From NCBI GenBank assembly GCA_023212695.1, contig JALCCG010000295.1, forward strand, positions 1 to 25,715: a stretch of DNA of 25,715 bases, read 5' to 3'. Positions 1,842 through 25,715 of this stretch are shown piece by piece. Position 1 is the first letter of the stretch. Every line of letters begins with the position of its first letter. Both the position numbers and the translations under genes were made by a program. Below the pieces are notes generated by a model that had not been told where the DNA came from, made no database searches, and saw only the letters and a list, made by a program, of their open reading frames with translations. This stretch comes from Sporisorium sorghi (Eukaryota; Basidiomycota; Ustilaginomycetes; Ustilaginales; Ustilaginaceae).

Positions 1842-3521
1842 TTAGATGAGCCCCTGCCGCTTCAACAAATCATACGTCTTCTTCGTATACGCATTGCCAT
1901 GTTCGTCCTCGACCTCCTGCGCATCCACCCCTGCCTGGCTCTGCTGCACTTTACCCTGCCTCCTTAGCTTCTCCGCCAGCGCCAGCGCATCTGCGATACT
2001 CGTCACATCTCTAAACTGCACCGTATTCGGCAGTCCAAGCGCACGCATGCCAAACGCGTGCCTCGACTCCGTGAAATGCTTCTCGAAATTCTTCCTGCCG
2101 TGGTAGACGTGGTCCGAACAGATCTCGCACCGGAACTCGTTGCGCAGGCCGTGCAGCTTGTACAGCCAGAACGGGATCGGGCGGCCGTCCCACCCGAGCG
2201 GCAGTTTGAGCGGGTTGTACACGCGTGCTGTCTCGTCGTCCTCTTCATCCAGTTCGCCGGAATCGCCAGCGGTGGCGGTGTCGTCGAGCCCAGAGGTGGG
2301 GTGCAGCGCAGACATGCGGTTGAGCTCCGCCTCGGCTGCTTCCGCCTCCGCTTGCCGCTCGCGGTCCGTCAGCGCCGCTTTGCGTTCGACGTTGGATTTC
2401 GTGTCGCTGCGAATCGAGGAGAGCTGGGCGGCAAGGGCAGCGATGACGGCCTCGTCGCGCGCGATGGCTTTGGAACGTACGCGGGTTTTGATGCGTTCCG
2501 TTTCGGTTTGGTCGTTGTTTTTAGGAGAGGTGTCTCGGTTCTGGGCGAGGCGTGCAGCAGCTTTGTGATGTTTGGGCGACTTGAGGTGTGCGTCGTATAC
2601 GGTTTGTTTCGCGTAGGATCTGCGACAGGCTGCACACCAGATGCCCTCCCCTCCAGCTGCGTCGACCGCGGTAGCCTTGCCCTTACCCTGCGCGTTACTC
2701 GGACCAAACACCTCGGCGCCCTGCTCCTCCCACCCCTGCACGCGGTGCTGCTCCCACGCCTCGTCAAACTCGCTCACCGCTTGCGAAGTTATCACGTCGA
2801 TATTTGCCAACGGTTGCGTCTTGCGCAGGAACCCATCGAGATATCTCCGCAGCTCGACGAGGTAGGCGCGATAGGCGTCCGTCTTCTTCGTGTGGTTGGG
2901 GATGGGCGACGATGGCCCCGCGAGCTTGTCAAACTCGTCGATGTACGCAAGATACGAGAGCCGCTTAGCACCCTTGAGGTTGAGGTACGTCTCGTGTTGA
3001 AGGTAAAGATCCAGGAACCTCCCCGCCATTTCCTCGCCGGAGAACATGCGGTCGATGAAATCCAGCCCTGCTGCGTCCGTATACTCCGCCGCTGCCGACG
3101 CCGCCGCCGATCCCACCCCTTCCGCAGATGCAACAGCCGACGCCCCGGCTCCAGATTCTAGTGATGAGAAGTCCACAGCAAAGTTGTCCGGCAACGCACC
3201 GGGATACCGTTCGTGGTACTCGCGGATCCTTCCCAGTCGCTCGTAAAACTCGCCGAACGCATCGCCGTCATCGCGATTTGAAGACAGCGCCTCGAGTTCA
3301 CGCTGCCGGTCGCCGTGCTCATCCGCATAGAATCGGTCGAGATACTGGTAGCGCGAGGTGACGCGGTCGAGCAGGTCTGATGCCTTGTGTGCTCGTTTCA
3401 GCTTGTCCTTGTGTGTGAGCCCGGTGGAGGAGTGGAGTAAGAGGTCGACGAGGGCTTGCTGGTATCGTTCTGCCTCTTCGTGGGTTTGGCGTGCCACTTC
3501 GATGAGCGATGTGTCTGCCAT
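1842..3521 (-). CDS. PRP9: Splicing factor 3a subunit 3 (SF3a60 / Prp9)
   Basis: This 559-aa protein is the SF3a60/Prp9 component of the U2 snRNP, needed for prespliceosome formation. The N-terminal part carries the family's helical SF3a60 region (RYQYLDRFY near residue 60, then a DFIDRMFSGEEMAGRFLDLY segment). A U1/matrin-type C2H2 zinc finger uses C296, C299, H312 and H318. The C-terminal Prp9-type finger uses C465, C468, H482 and H488, followed by the conserved RALGLPNT stretch, and the protein ends in KRQGLI, close to the family's typical C-terminus. I place the start at the ATG of MADTSLIEVA (3521) because homologues begin there. The frame is open further upstream through a poly-proline run made by a G tract in the promoter, with an in-frame ATG at 3662. 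The gene is divergent from the Fal1-like helicase gene. Confidence 0.93.
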   Translation of the reverse strand: MADTSLIEVARQTHEEAERYQQALVDLLLHSSTGLTHKDKLKRAHKASDLLDRVTSRYQYLDRFYADEHGDRQRELEALSSNRDDGDAFGEFYERLGRIREYHERYPGALPDNFAVDFSSLESGAGASAVASAEGVGSAAASAAAEYTDAAGLDFIDRMFSGEEMAGRFLDLYLQHETYLNLKGAKRLSYLAYIDEFDKLAGPSSPIPNHTKKTDAYRAYLVELRRYLDGFLRKTQPLANIDVITSQAVSEFDEAWEQHRVQGWEEQGAEVFGPSNAQGKGKATAVDAAGGEGIWCAACRRSYAKQTVYDAHLKSPKHHKAAARLAQNRDTSPKNNDQTETERIKTRVRSKAIARDEAVIAALAAQLSSIRSDTKSNVERKAALTDRERQAEAEAAEAELNRMSALHPTSGLDDTATAGDSGELDEEDDETARVYNPLKLPLGWDGRPIPFWLYKLHGLRNEFRCEICSDHVYHGRKNFEKHFTESRHAFGMRALGLPNTVQFRDVTSIADALALAEKLRRQGKVQQSQAGVDAQEVEDEHGNAYTKKTYDLLKRQGLI

Positions 3522-3811
3522 CGTGGCTAGCTGTGCTGTAGAGGTGATCTGCAGCAAGATTGGTGGGGGGGGGGGGGGGGGGGGGGGGGGGGCGGGGGGT
3601 GCGAGGAGGAGAAAGAAGGAGGAAGAGAGGCACGACACATTCGCATTCTCTCCAAAAAGCATTTCCACCAAATCCCGCAATCCGAGCTTTTTCTCTCAGT
3701 CACGTGCGACACATTTTATTTATTTATTTATTTATTTTTGCTGCGCATTCTCCACAATCTTCTTCCTTCTCTTCTTCCACCACCTCATCCTCACCCATAC
3801 ACATCGCAACC
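3522..3811. promoter_or_regulatory. Shared promoter between SF3a60/Prp9 and Fal1/eIF4A3 genes
   Basis: The 290 bp between the two divergent start codons must hold both promoters and leaders. It contains 28 consecutive G at 3565-3592 followed by C and six more G, an E-box-like CACGTG at 3701-3706, and five copies of TTTA at 3715-3734. No TATA box is obvious in a useful position. The shared control of a spliceosome gene and an exon-junction helicase gene is inferred from the arrangement. Confidence 0.7.
3565..3592 (+). repeat. G28 homopolymer tract
   Basis: There are 28 uninterrupted G followed by C and GGGGGG to 3599. The tract lies in the leader of the minus-strand Prp9 gene, about 45 bp upstream of its start codon. 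Such runs can form G-quadruplexes and are prone to length change and sequencing error. Confidence 0.9.
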
Positions 3812-5008
3812 ATGTCCTCCGGCGGCGTCAACGCAGGCGACAGCAAATTCGTCTTCGAGAGCTCCGAACACGTCAAGGTCGCCACCACCTTCGACGCCAT
3901 GGGTCTCAAAGAAGACCTGCTTCGTGGCATCTACGCATACAACTTCGAGAAACCCTCTGCAATCCAGCAGCGTGCGATCCTGCCCATCATTCGGGGTCGC
4001 GATGTGATTGCGCAAGCACAGTCGGGGACGGGCAAGACGGCGACGTTCAGTATTTCGATGCTGCAGTCGATCGATACGACTTTGCGAGAAACGCAGGCGT
4101 TGGTGCTGAGTCCGACGCGCGAGTTGGCGATCCAGATCCAATCGGTGGTGCTTGCGTTGGGGGATTACTTGAATGTGCAGTGCCATGCGTGTATCGGCGG
4201 GACGAGTGTCGGGGAGGATATCAGGAAGCTGGACTATGGCCAGCATATCGTTTCCGGGACGCCGGGGCGGGTGTACGATATGATCCGACGCAGGCATCTG
4301 CGCACGAAGAACATCAAGATGCTCATCCTGGACGAGTCGGACGAGCTGCTCAACATGGGGTTCAAGGATCAGATCTACGACGTGTACCGCTACCTGCCGC
4401 CTTCGACGCAGGTGGTGTTGCTGTCGGCGACGCTGCCGCACGACGTGCTCGAGATGACGTCCAAGTTCATGACCGATCCCGTGCGCATCCTGGTCAAGCG
4501 CGACGAGCTCACTCTCGAGGGCATCAAGCAGTTCTTCGTAGCCGTCGAAAAAGAGGAGTGGAAGTTCGACACGCTCTGCGATCTCTACGACACACTCACC
4601 ATCACGCAGGCGGTCATCTTCTGCAACGCTCGCCGCAAAGTCGATTGGTTGAGTGGCAAGATGAAGGAGAACAACTTCCAGGTCAGCAGCATGCACGGCG
4701 AGATGCAGCAGAAGGAGCGCGACCAAGTCATGGCCGAGTTCCGCCAGGGCAGCTCGCGCGTCCTCATCACCACAGACGTCTGGGCCAGAGGCATCGACAT
4801 TGCCAACATCTCGCTCGTCATCAACTACGATCTGCCCACGAACAGGGAGAATTACATCCATAGGATCGGCAGGAGTGGCCGGTTTGGCAGGAAGGGCGTC
4901 GCGATCAACTTTGTCACCGTCGAGGATGTCAGGACGCTGCGCGATATCGAGCAGTTTTACTCGACTCAGATCGACGAGATGCCCGTCAAGTTGGAGGATG
5001 TGCTGTGA
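3812..5008 (+). CDS. FAL1: eIF4A3-like DEAD-box RNA helicase (Fal1)
   Basis: This 398-aa ATP-dependent RNA helicase is closest to eIF4A3/Fal1, the exon-junction-complex and pre-rRNA-processing member of the eIF4A family. The usual length is about 400 aa. Motifs in order are: Q motif region (FEKPSAIQQ, 45-53), Walker A AQSGTGKT (69-76), PTREL (101-105), GG (129-130), TPGR (150-153), DESD in place of DEAD (174-177), SAT (205-207), ARGID (325-329) and HRIGRSGR (350-357). The string [14 protein letters not shown] and the C-terminal STQIDEMP are characteristic of eIF4A3 rather than of eIF4A1. ATG 3812 is chosen from the family's N-terminus; the frame is open upstream only through a poly-Gly run encoded by the G tract. 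No introns are seen. Confidence 0.94.
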
Positions 5009-19551: not shown

Positions 19552-20069
19552 ATGCGCTCGTTCTGCCTCTGGACGTCGCTGGTGCTCGGGCTGACGCTCG
19601 CGTTCGCCCGAGCAGCCGACGACGATCGAGTCTGTCTCTCCACCGTACCTTTCAACACGACCCTTTCCACCACCGACGGCTACCTGCTCGCGAAAGCCGG
19701 CGAGACGACCGAGATCCTCACGTCGCGCGACGACTCGTCGGTCGTGCACCATGCCGCTGCGAGCTTTGCCGTCGATCTGATGCGCATGGTGCCCACGTCG
19801 ACCGTCGTCGTGCGCAACGTCACGTCTGCATCCGTCAAGCAGCAGAACCGCGCGAAAGAGAGGGTGGTGGTGGTGGTGGGCAGTGTGGAGGCGTGGTCTT
19901 CCGTCCGATCGGAATCGGCGCTGGTGCTGATGGGAGCGGATCGGAGGGGTGCAGCGTATGCGCTGTACACGCTGAGCGAGGAGCTGGGAGTGAGCCCTTG
20001 GAAGTGGTTCGCGGACGTGCATCCCACCGGTGGTGCGGGCTTGTACTACCATGCCGAGTAAGTTGCCAT

Positions 20070-20126
<57 letters not shown>

Positions 20127-20364: not shown

Positions 20365-21945
20365 TCAGTGCGAAGACCAACCAGGATCGTCAGTCTTCAT
20401 CTTGTTCAAAAACGTCGCCTGGGTATAGCCATCAGCGGCATTGTACTGCGTCGTATAGAGCACCTGATGCCCGCTGCCAGGAACCATAAAGTTCCTCGCG
20501 TTGCTTGTCGAATTGTTCTCCTGCGCAAACAGACGCACAAGCTCCTTGCTAAAGTCGTCAAACGACACGCCCTGGTTCGGCGGAATCGTGGTATCGTTGG
20601 ACCAGCTCATACTCGCGAACCTCGAGCCCGTATTGGCCTGCGCCAGGCCGACGATGTACGAGTCGAAGTTGTCGTCGTTGCAACCCGGGCAGCGCGACTT
20701 GCTCGGCACCTGGATGTTCTGGCTCGGATGCACCAGGATCGACTTGGGCGTCTCCCCGCTGTCCGCGATCAAGTCGACGCGCACGCCAAAGATGTCCTGT
20801 GCATTCTGGTACTGCAGGATCGCACCGAACGCTCCAGCGCTGCTGCCGCTGATCCACACCCTCTGCGTGCCCGGCAGCATCTGCTTGAGCTTGGCCATAT
20901 CCAATTTCCCATTGTTCCAGCCCTTGTGCGCCGTCGTCGTGCTCGCTCCGCTGTACTGCACAACGTTATCGCCCGCGTGGAAGTCGCCAGTGCAGTATGG
21001 GATGAACGCATAGTTCGAGGCATGCCACGGATTCCACTGGTTCTGACGTGCTTGTGGGAACCAGTACTGGAGCGTGTTGGGCTGGTTCTGCGACCAGAAC
21101 GTGGCGTTGTTGAAACCGTTGGCCATGTTGTAGGCTTTCTTTTGAACGTAGCAGGTGTTGTAGTCGTAGCACGAGCCGCCGCCCTGGTAGCCGATCACGA
21201 GGTCGGTGGCGCCAGCGTGCAGGTTGACCGCCATACCCGTCTGGCTGCCGTCGGCACACGTGGTGCCGGGCACGTCGACCCTCACCCACTGGTCGTATGC
21301 GATCGCAGTGGATGAGGAGGCGGGCGCTGAGGTCGAGGTTGAGCTGGAAGTTGACGTCGACGACGTGATGGTGGACGTGACGGTGGTGGTCGAGACGATG
21401 GTGGTGGTGGACGCCGAGGGGCAGACGGCGCAGGTCGAAGAGCCCTGCGCCTGACCAGCGTTGCTCGTAAACGTGTAGCTCGCCTTGACCGTGCCCGGAC
21501 CGTTGAACAAGCCCGTCGTGTACTTGGCATCGCTCTTGGGCGCAGTGGCGCTGTACAGGGCACAGATGACATTGCCCTCGGAGAAGTTTTCGAACTTGAT
21601 GACGTGGGCCATAGCACAGCTCGTGGTCGACTGGCACGTCGCAACACACGCATTGACGTGCTGCTGCTGCGTGGTGCTCGTCGCATCTTTGGAGACGGTC
21701 GAGCGGGTGAGGTAGGTCTTGGCGCCCTGCGTGTCGAGTGCGAGGCGGTATCCGTCGACGGCCCAGCTGTAAGTGTAGCCCGAAGGAGCGACGAATCCCT
21801 GGACGTATCGAGCTTGAAGATGGCAAGACTGGTCGGGGCGGTTGACGGAGGGAGCGCTGTGCACGCCGGCGGCAGCGAGCACGAGTGCTGCCGCTGCCGC
21901 TGCCGCCGCCGCCGCCGCCGAAACAGCGAAAGCGGAAGTCTTCAT
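20365..21945 (-). CDS. Secreted pectin-acetylesterase/Notum-like hydrolase with N-terminal PAN/Apple-like region
   Basis: This 526-aa predicted secreted carboxylic-ester hydrolase begins with a signal peptide (MKTSAF, a long poly-Ala core, cleavage near residue 31). A Cys-rich region at 41-177 resembles a PAN/Apple domain (CHLQARY, C100, C104, C110, C128). A Ser/Thr-rich linker at 178-215 is probably O-glycosylated. The catalytic domain follows, with the oxyanion-type GGGSC at 255-259, the nucleophile motif GSSAG (367-371, S369) and H493 in SGHQVL. D395 and D451 are candidate acids. These are features of the pectin-acetylesterase/Notum (CE13) family. The likely job is deacetylating plant cell-wall polysaccharide outside the cell, but substrate cannot be read from sequence. 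The domain looks complete and the gene has no introns. It is convergent with the truncated GH115 gene. Confidence 0.88.
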   Translation of the reverse strand: MKTSAFAVSAAAAAAAAAAALVLAAAGVHSAPSVNRPDQSCHLQARYVQGFVAPSGYTYSWAVDGYRLALDTQGAKTYLTRSTVSKDATSTTQQQHVNACVATCQSTTSCAMAHVIKFENFSEGNVICALYSATAPKSDAKYTTGLFNGPGTVKASYTFTSNAGQAQGSSTCAVCPSASTTTIVSTTTVTSTITSSTSTSSSTSTSAPASSSTAIAYDQWVRVDVPGTTCADGSQTGMAVNLHAGATDLVIGYQGGGSCYDYNTCYVQKKAYNMANGFNNATFWSQNQPNTLQYWFPQARQNQWNPWHASNYAFIPYCTGDFHAGDNVVQYSGASTTTAHKGWNNGKLDMAKLKQMLPGTQRVWISGSSAGAFGAILQYQNAQDIFGVRVDLIADSGETPKSILVHPSQNIQVPSKSRCPGCNDDNFDSYIVGLAQANTGSRFASMSWSNDTTIPPNQGVSFDDFSKELVRLFAQENNSTSNARNFMVPGSGHQVLYTTQYNAADGYTQATFLNKMKTDDPGWSSH

Positions 21946-24774: not shown

Positions 24775-25641
24775 ATGAAGTTGGTCACGATCAAGGCACT
24801 GGTTGCCTTTACGTCGCTCGCCTTGATGGCGGATGCGGCGGCAGTGCCTCGCAGCAAGCTTGTCGTCAAGGAATCCGTCACCGTTCCCGCTGATTGGGTT
24901 CGTCGTTCCGATGCTGCTGATCACCAGCCTGTTGCGCTCAGGTTTGCGCTCAGGCAGTCGGACGTCGCTTCGCTCGAAAAGAGGCTGCTGCAAACCTCGG
25001 ACCCGGACCACGAGCTGTACGGTCGCCACCTGTCCGCCGACGAGGTCTCGGCGTACCTTCAGCCTCAGAAGCGCACTGTTGAGGAGGTCGAGCTGTGGCT
25101 GCGCGAGGCTGGTGTGGATATCGACGAGAGCCTCGCTGCTCGCTCGCCGTCCAAGGATACGTTTACCGTGCACGTGCCTGCGTGGAAGGCGAGGGAGCTG
25201 CTCAACGCCGATTTGGGTGTGTACGAGCACAAGCGCACCGGTGCGCTTGCGATCAGGGCCGCCGAGTACAGCGTTCCGGAGCACGTCTCGGAGCTTCTGG
25301 ATTACGTGGGTCCCCTGACGCTGTTCACGGCTCCTCGTGCTCACGGCAGCAACATTGCGGGCACGCAGGTTTTGACCGAGAAGCTCGAGGACGTCTTGTC
25401 GTCCGAGCTCAACAAGGTGGGCGACCTCAGCGTCGATGGTACGCCCGCCGCTTGCAACACGAATGCCGTGACCTCGCTGTGCCTGCGCACGTTCTACAAG
25501 ACGGTCAACTACGTGCCCAAGGCAGCCTCAAAGTTCCACCTCGGTATCTCGGGCTTCTTGGAGCAGTATGCCAGCTTTAGCGACTTTACGGGCTTCCTGA
25601 CGCAGCAGCGTCCCGAGGCTGCGGCTGCGGGATACAACTTT
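24775..25641 (+). pseudogene. Sedolisin-family (S53, tripeptidyl-peptidase-like) protease truncated by the telomere
   Basis: The frame encodes 289 residues before the telomere. A signal peptide (MKLVTIKALVAFTSLALMADA) is followed by the S53 prodomain at ~30-190: VTVPADWVRR, the family-typical DPDHELYGRHLSADEV near 77-91 and VELWLREAGV at 105-114. The start of the mature enzyme follows, with TPAACNTN and C236 near 223-236, then KFHLGISGFLEQYASFSDF around 253-271 and AAAAGYNF to the end. In S53 enzymes the catalytic Glu and Asp follow shortly after this point and the Ser some 200 residues later; all are missing. Full-length fungal members are about 550-650 aa. No stop codon precedes the repeats, and the frame continues through them as alternating Gly and Leu. 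The remnant cannot be an active protease. Confidence 0.88.
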
Positions 25642-25715
25642 GGGTTAGGGTTAGGGTTAGGGTTAGGGTTAGGGTTAGGGTTAGGGTTAGGGTTAGGGTT
25701 AGGGTTAGGGTTAGG
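25642..25715 (+). repeat. Telomere (TTAGGG repeats) at the chromosome's right end
   Basis: GGG at 25642-25644 is followed by eleven perfect TTAGGG units and a partial TTAGG to the last base. The G-rich strand runs 5' to 3' toward the window end, the correct orientation for a right-hand chromosome end. The three bases before GGG are TTT rather than TTA, so the first in-register unit could be an imperfect TTTGGG shared with the gene. There is no degenerate telomere zone. Confidence 0.97.

Follow-up and report, generated by a model that had tools for sequence, protein, structure and literature searches.

Telomere repeats joined directly to an S53 protease gene fragment at a contig end of Sporisorium sorghi: a candidate healed chromosome break

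Chromosome breaks healed by a telomere are a known kind of event, best described in Pyricularia. In the available part of a study of Pyricularia/Magnaporthe oryzae, 19 of 24 rDNA-telomere truncations used a seed of 1–4 nt and five did not (PMC7367193); the accessible sections of a second study describe nested truncations and telomere junctions that are poorly conserved, together with a method that picks de novo telomeres from raw reads (PMC8381367). Among smut fungi, telomere arrays at contig ends of S. scitamineum average 76 bp, and the excerpted genome description reports 35 helicase genes at 22 ends, with three telomere-linked RecQ (PMC4466345). According to the available text of PMC10035886, the telomerase RNA template of Ustilago maydis spans 9 nt and that of other Ustilaginales 11 nt. 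No earlier smut case of de novo telomere addition was found among the matches listed in the open-licence literature.

Here, we analysed one contig (C221, JALCCG010000295.1) of an S. sorghi assembly (23.17 Mb in 469 contigs). The window, 25,715 nt long, is this whole contig, and at its right end the coding sequence of an S53 protease passes directly into telomere repeats. In our judgement, which was not computed, a healed terminal truncation inside the S53 gene is the best single explanation, with a probability of about 0.55.

The S53 gene fragment and its telomere repeats

The features at the right end of the window are as follows.

24775–25641, + strand: 5′ part of an S53 (sedolisin, tripeptidyl-peptidase I-like) gene, 289 codons (PF09286 and alignment)
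25641–25642, no strand: join of S53 coding sequence and telomere repeat (direct reading; the preceding 18 nt occur once in the contigs searched)
25642–25715, + strand: perfect (GGGTTA)12.3, G-strand outward, contig end (direct reading)

Read directly from the sequence, the S53 frame opens with the ATG at 24775 and stays open through 25641. A Pfam scan placed the activation domain (PF09286, Pro-kuma_activ) at residues 40–184 (E = 6e-36), showing that the sedolisin propeptide is present in the fragment, and residues 35–185 match tripeptidyl-peptidase 1 in the PDB. The peptidase domain was absent from the same scan, and the gene part stops at residue 289 of ~613; the activation domain is common to this gene, S53 sedolisins and tripeptidyl-peptidase I, whereas the catalytic half is absent from the gene in the window. 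An intact counterpart, for which the first-pass annotation had proposed a search of related strains, does exist in relatives: in a search for which only proteins up to ~673 aa were eligible, 20 of 24 matches were full-length (565–615 aa), including the smut proteins of S. scitamineum and S. reilianum (615 and 613 aa; 88% and 87% identity) and three distant ones at 33–35% identity. The remaining four measured 299, 343, 469 and 478 aa. The 343-aa protein (P0015) was considered as a truncated S53 gene in a relative and rejected, as by eye its end looks like an annotation frame error, not a telomere. A U. maydis gene number considered for S53 was discarded after no mention of it was found in the literature searched.

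The alignment with relatives stops at YNF, after which they read TVQS or SVES and similar; the frame in the window reads GLGLGL past 25641 and is stop-free up to the contig end. Identity to proteins P0001 and P0002 is 89–94% over residues 1–192, 67–69% over residues 193–240 and 88–90% over residues 241–289, and the codons left before the join look undecayed up to the last one, which is equally the picture of an intact gene. The telomere tract comprises 74 nt, or 12.3 perfect 6-mer copies, ends on the contig's last base (25715) and starts as GGGTTAGGG directly after TTT. A perfect repeat of 74 nt is too long to have arisen by chance. The TTT is followed by GGG, not AGGG, where relatives carry Thr or Ser as the next residue, and because codons for these residues never begin with G, the GGG at the join is unlikely to be native. 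The repeat is a native one for this genome, matching 13 other tails in unit and direction, and the DNA that it adjoins is unique and runs on unbroken in relatives.

These observations agree with the first-pass annotation in that S53 coding sequence runs straight into perfect TTAGGG at 25642, both sequence and coordinates being correct. The tract also starts on a codon boundary, as had been noted, a one-in-three event, and the argument drawn from this fails. The suggestion that the preceding TTT paired with the telomerase template as the TT of TTAGGG does not hold for the join as read, because TT would need an A next and the join has a G.

Further genes with Pfam matches in the window are listed here.

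279–1760, + strand: RNase H2 subunit A (PF01351), left marker for S53 linkage (Pfam)
1842–3521, − strand: splicing factor SF3a60/Prp9 (Pfam, scanned with one codon before the ATG; frame from the ATG)
3812–5008, + strand: DEAD-box helicase, which we take to be FAL1/eIF4A-like (Pfam, scanned with a leader from 3659; frame from the ATG)
20365–21945, − strand: pectinacetylesterase-like, PF03283 (Pfam, scanned from 21972; frame from the ATG)

Of the genes with a Pfam match, the pectinacetylesterase-like one lies closest to S53. RNase H2A and S53 occur on contigs of identical size in at least 8 of the 24 S53 matches (113489, 423018, 450856, 553710, 471450, 445580, 206618 and 410858), with identical size taken as one contig and the best 120 of 2617 RNase H2A matches compared; because the two genes share contigs of identical size, the two ends of the window are probably linked in relatives. 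Between them, a 169-aa frame from 19552 to 20061 has a signal-peptide-like start and no Pfam match, and is presumably GH115-like (by eye). A run of 54 C (20071–20124) lies just past it, and frame and run may represent another broken gene, or else a misjoin. Positions 3565–3599 hold a run of 35 nearly pure G, and no RNA family in the window reached its gathering score.

Telomere joins across the assembly

A full-length S53 relative, searched against contigs of ~10 kb and up, matched in residues 1–291 only and at this locus only, and the C-terminal 326 aa of another relative, its catalytic half, gave a single match (E = 0.07) that we took as chance. On the contigs searched, the last 100 nt before the join appeared on no other contig, and no facing flank of the S53 gene, of the kind expected on the far side of an interstitial array, was found. 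The smallest of 20 sampled contigs measured 10,033 and 10,065 bases, and contigs under ~10 kb seem absent from the set searched. Among 11 ordinary unique contig starts taken as a control, 6 recurred at a second place on another contig, counted anywhere on that contig and not only at its ends, and 5 did not; because only 6 of 11 have one, the absence of a second place is weak evidence.

Repeat tails were found at no fewer than 15 contig ends, 14 with a 63-mer and one (C188) with an 18-mer, the latter search covering about 100 of 156 places, and the count may have missed short tracts on some contigs. Exact period-6 tails are 74–77 nt long in 13 of the 15, and 55 and 65 nt long in C188 and C366, where a variant repeat unit lies further in. 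The last 77-mer of a tail recurs in another tail in 12 of 15 cases and the last 78-mer in 0 of 15, and because 77-mers recur between tails and 78-mers do not, the tail ends are merge points of a k = 77 assembly graph, which rules out 74 nt as a telomere length. Other features of the assembly include 60-mers made wholly or almost wholly of T or of A at the starts of C310, C390, C400, C440, C408 and C418; with 6 of 20 sampled contig starts of this type, homopolymers are common assembly break points. A short internal TTAGGG array, with three and a half perfect units in AT-rich surroundings, lies at C28:13534–13551.

Flank uniqueness and continuation were tested for ten of the 15 joins (C221, C373, C26, C164, C191, C304, C320, C327, C329 and C366). 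Telomerase makes outward-facing repeats only. The G-strand points outward in 9 of the ten joins (P ~ 0.011 for random orientation), a post hoc figure, as the ten were set apart from five tails beside accessory genes after the sequences had been seen; the Pfam matches for the tails came after this grouping. Without C320 and C373 the count is 8/8 (P = 0.004), and over all tails found it is 14/15, with only C320 facing the other way. Because chimeric joins should face both ways, this orientation bias speaks for C221 ending at a real chromosome end.

Two of the ten joins continue natively on a different contig, compared with 6/11 in the control (P = 0.18), as does one of nine outward joins (P = 0.07 against the same control). 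In the first case (C320:1–77 with C58:1–77), the repeat at the start of C320 faces backwards, and the DNA adjoining it shares exactly 77 nt with C58 (55 kb), which then continues natively and differently; C320 may be chimeric, or may be a break to which a telomere tip was joined. In the second, the C373 join interrupts an RSC9-like frame that goes on in C304, in a stretch with a PDB match to RSC9. The 31 nt that lead up to this join are also the end of C304 (C373:1–107 versus C304:18175–18205), an overlap below k = 77 that may reflect thin coverage. The other (left) end of C304 is an outward telomere ~18 kb on from the C373 join, and its last 8 kb carry ADIP- and Nup35-type genes. Since two of ten joins have a continuation elsewhere, joins in this assembly can be spurious or confined to a fraction of the sample; the one inward join (C320) implies that about one spurious outward join is to be expected, and C373 may be that one. 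The C373 join also sits in a strong imperfect palindrome (−13.3 over 120 nt, folding), but palindromes as a general break-site rule were rejected, as ten folded 60-nt flanks lay between −2.9 and −9.9 and the baseline is −6.7 (SD 3.1).

A further gene is broken by the C26 join, leucine-rich-looking and without a Pfam match: residues 635–714 of a 721-aa S. reilianum relative are present on C26, and its first 634 residues were not found in the contigs searched. Genes within 10 kb of the remaining joins tested encode a proteasome-type ATPase and a DEAD-box RNA-helicase-like protein (C191), a KAR9-like protein (C164), a uridine kinase and a cytochrome-b5-like protein (C327), an LSM protein (C329) and a sulfatase (C366). 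Genes in the last 10 kb of the five other tails are of the accessory kind expected at natural ends, namely a carboxylate-reductase-like enzyme (C275), a PDR transporter (C372), a glycosyltransferase (C451), a xylanase (C469) and a weak hydrolase match (C188). The 10-kb end of the window gave no BLAST match at 1e-5 to the 14 other ends, and thus lacks the sequence sharing of a subtelomere at this threshold; a subtelomere shared among the 15 ends was likewise rejected, the only match being 153 nt between C304 and C469. No RecQ-named family appeared in 34 reading frames scanned from telomeric contigs, which are part of the end frames, and the C191 helicase was dismissed as a telomere-linked RecQ, as its 60 PDB matches listed are DEAD-box or RNA-helicase entries.

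A healed break and its alternatives

If the S53 gene was truncated and healed, a chromosome of the sequenced isolate would really end where the contig stops. A double-strand break would have cut the chromosome arm inside S53, the centromere-distal piece would have been lost, and telomerase would have extended the broken 3′ end directly with TTAGGG, no seed being visible. S53 would thereby be null, with its catalytic half gone and no stop codon after, and the event would be recent, since the remaining codons look undecayed. The terminal deletion followed by new telomere addition put forward in the first-pass annotation is supported by the full-length gene in relatives, by the outward repeats and by a remainder that was not found in the contigs searched, and from these, together with the join itself, we infer a physical end, telomerase as its maker and loss of the distal arm. 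The same proposal is weakened by the two joins in ten that have native continuations and by a search set from which the contigs under ~10 kb seem absent.

These weaknesses feed the strongest competing account, in which a chimeric telomere read was the sole extension at a place of thin coverage and S53 continues on a contig of <10 kb. The C373 and C320 telomere joins coexist with native sequence, the C373/C304 overlap of 31 nt falls below k = 77, possibly through thin coverage, and the S53 remainder may sit among the small contigs. Undecayed codons fit an intact gene, and gene-breaking is also a frequent outcome of random spurious joins, C373 being exactly such a case. We nevertheless regard this account as unlikely, though one to be taken seriously, because random joins should point either way equally and 9 of 10 tested point outward, and because the remainder of S53 (~1 kb) is missing in addition to any overlap.

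Less probable still is a mosaic, in which the telomere caps broken arms in part of the sampled cells and intact arms also exist. The C373 arm looks like this, with two same-facing outward joins ~18 kb apart (C373 and the left end of C304) and the native link between them also assembled. The short C373 form, however, would lose most of the RSC9-like gene and the Nup35-like gene, and would be unlikely to be viable in a haploid; both kinds of gene are essential in yeast. For S53 itself, an intact copy was not found in the contigs searched.

It appears very improbable that a telomere was captured, or that an older natural end of a chromosome of the species happens to fall inside S53. Almost no sequence is common to the 10-kb telomeric ends compared, so this assembly has many ends that lack shared subtelomeric repeats, in line with such an origin, but the S53 coding sequence is undecayed-looking to its last codon. 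That S53 continues past an interstitial repeat is scarcely credible, as one inward flank would be expected per outward one and 14 of 15 tails are outward, even though a short internal array exists at C28:13534.

Returning to a healed truncation inside S53, the approximately nine outward telomere joins in one isolate that adjoin single-copy DNA, several of them near core genes, are possibly unusual. A bout of telomere failure, in which eight to nine arms lost DNA back into gene-rich regions and were each recapped, with at least one arm (RSC9, C373/C304) present in two lengths in one DNA sample, is a scenario that we offer only tentatively and consider doubtful.

Comparison with described chromosome ends

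If real, the S53 join shows at base resolution how telomerase healed a chromosome of a smut fungus, in an isolate that loses a secreted-type protease, and with the other joins it makes up a set of new telomeres that can be counted within a single genome. Otherwise, it cautions, with two contradicted cases here, that a telomere tail on a short-read contig is not necessarily a chromosome end.

Short telomere arrays at contig ends are common to S. scitamineum and this assembly; 22 ends of S. scitamineum carry helicase genes in the available part of its description, whereas here one helicase (C191) and no RecQ appeared in the 34 frames scanned (PMC4466345). A seed is usual at the Pyricularia truncations (19/24) and none is visible at the S53 join (PMC7367193, available part); a seedless join would be unusual and does not exclude de novo telomere addition. 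The Pyricularia ends are backed by cloning, blots and MinION reads in the accessible text, whereas the S53 end is known from assembly alone (PMC7367193, PMC8381367). In both Pyricularia/Magnaporthe oryzae and S. sorghi, as far as the available sections describe the former, TTAGGG is joined directly to single-copy or truncated DNA (PMC7367193, PMC8381367), and both have poorly conserved junctions and nested truncations of one arm, in S. sorghi apparent ones (PMC8381367).
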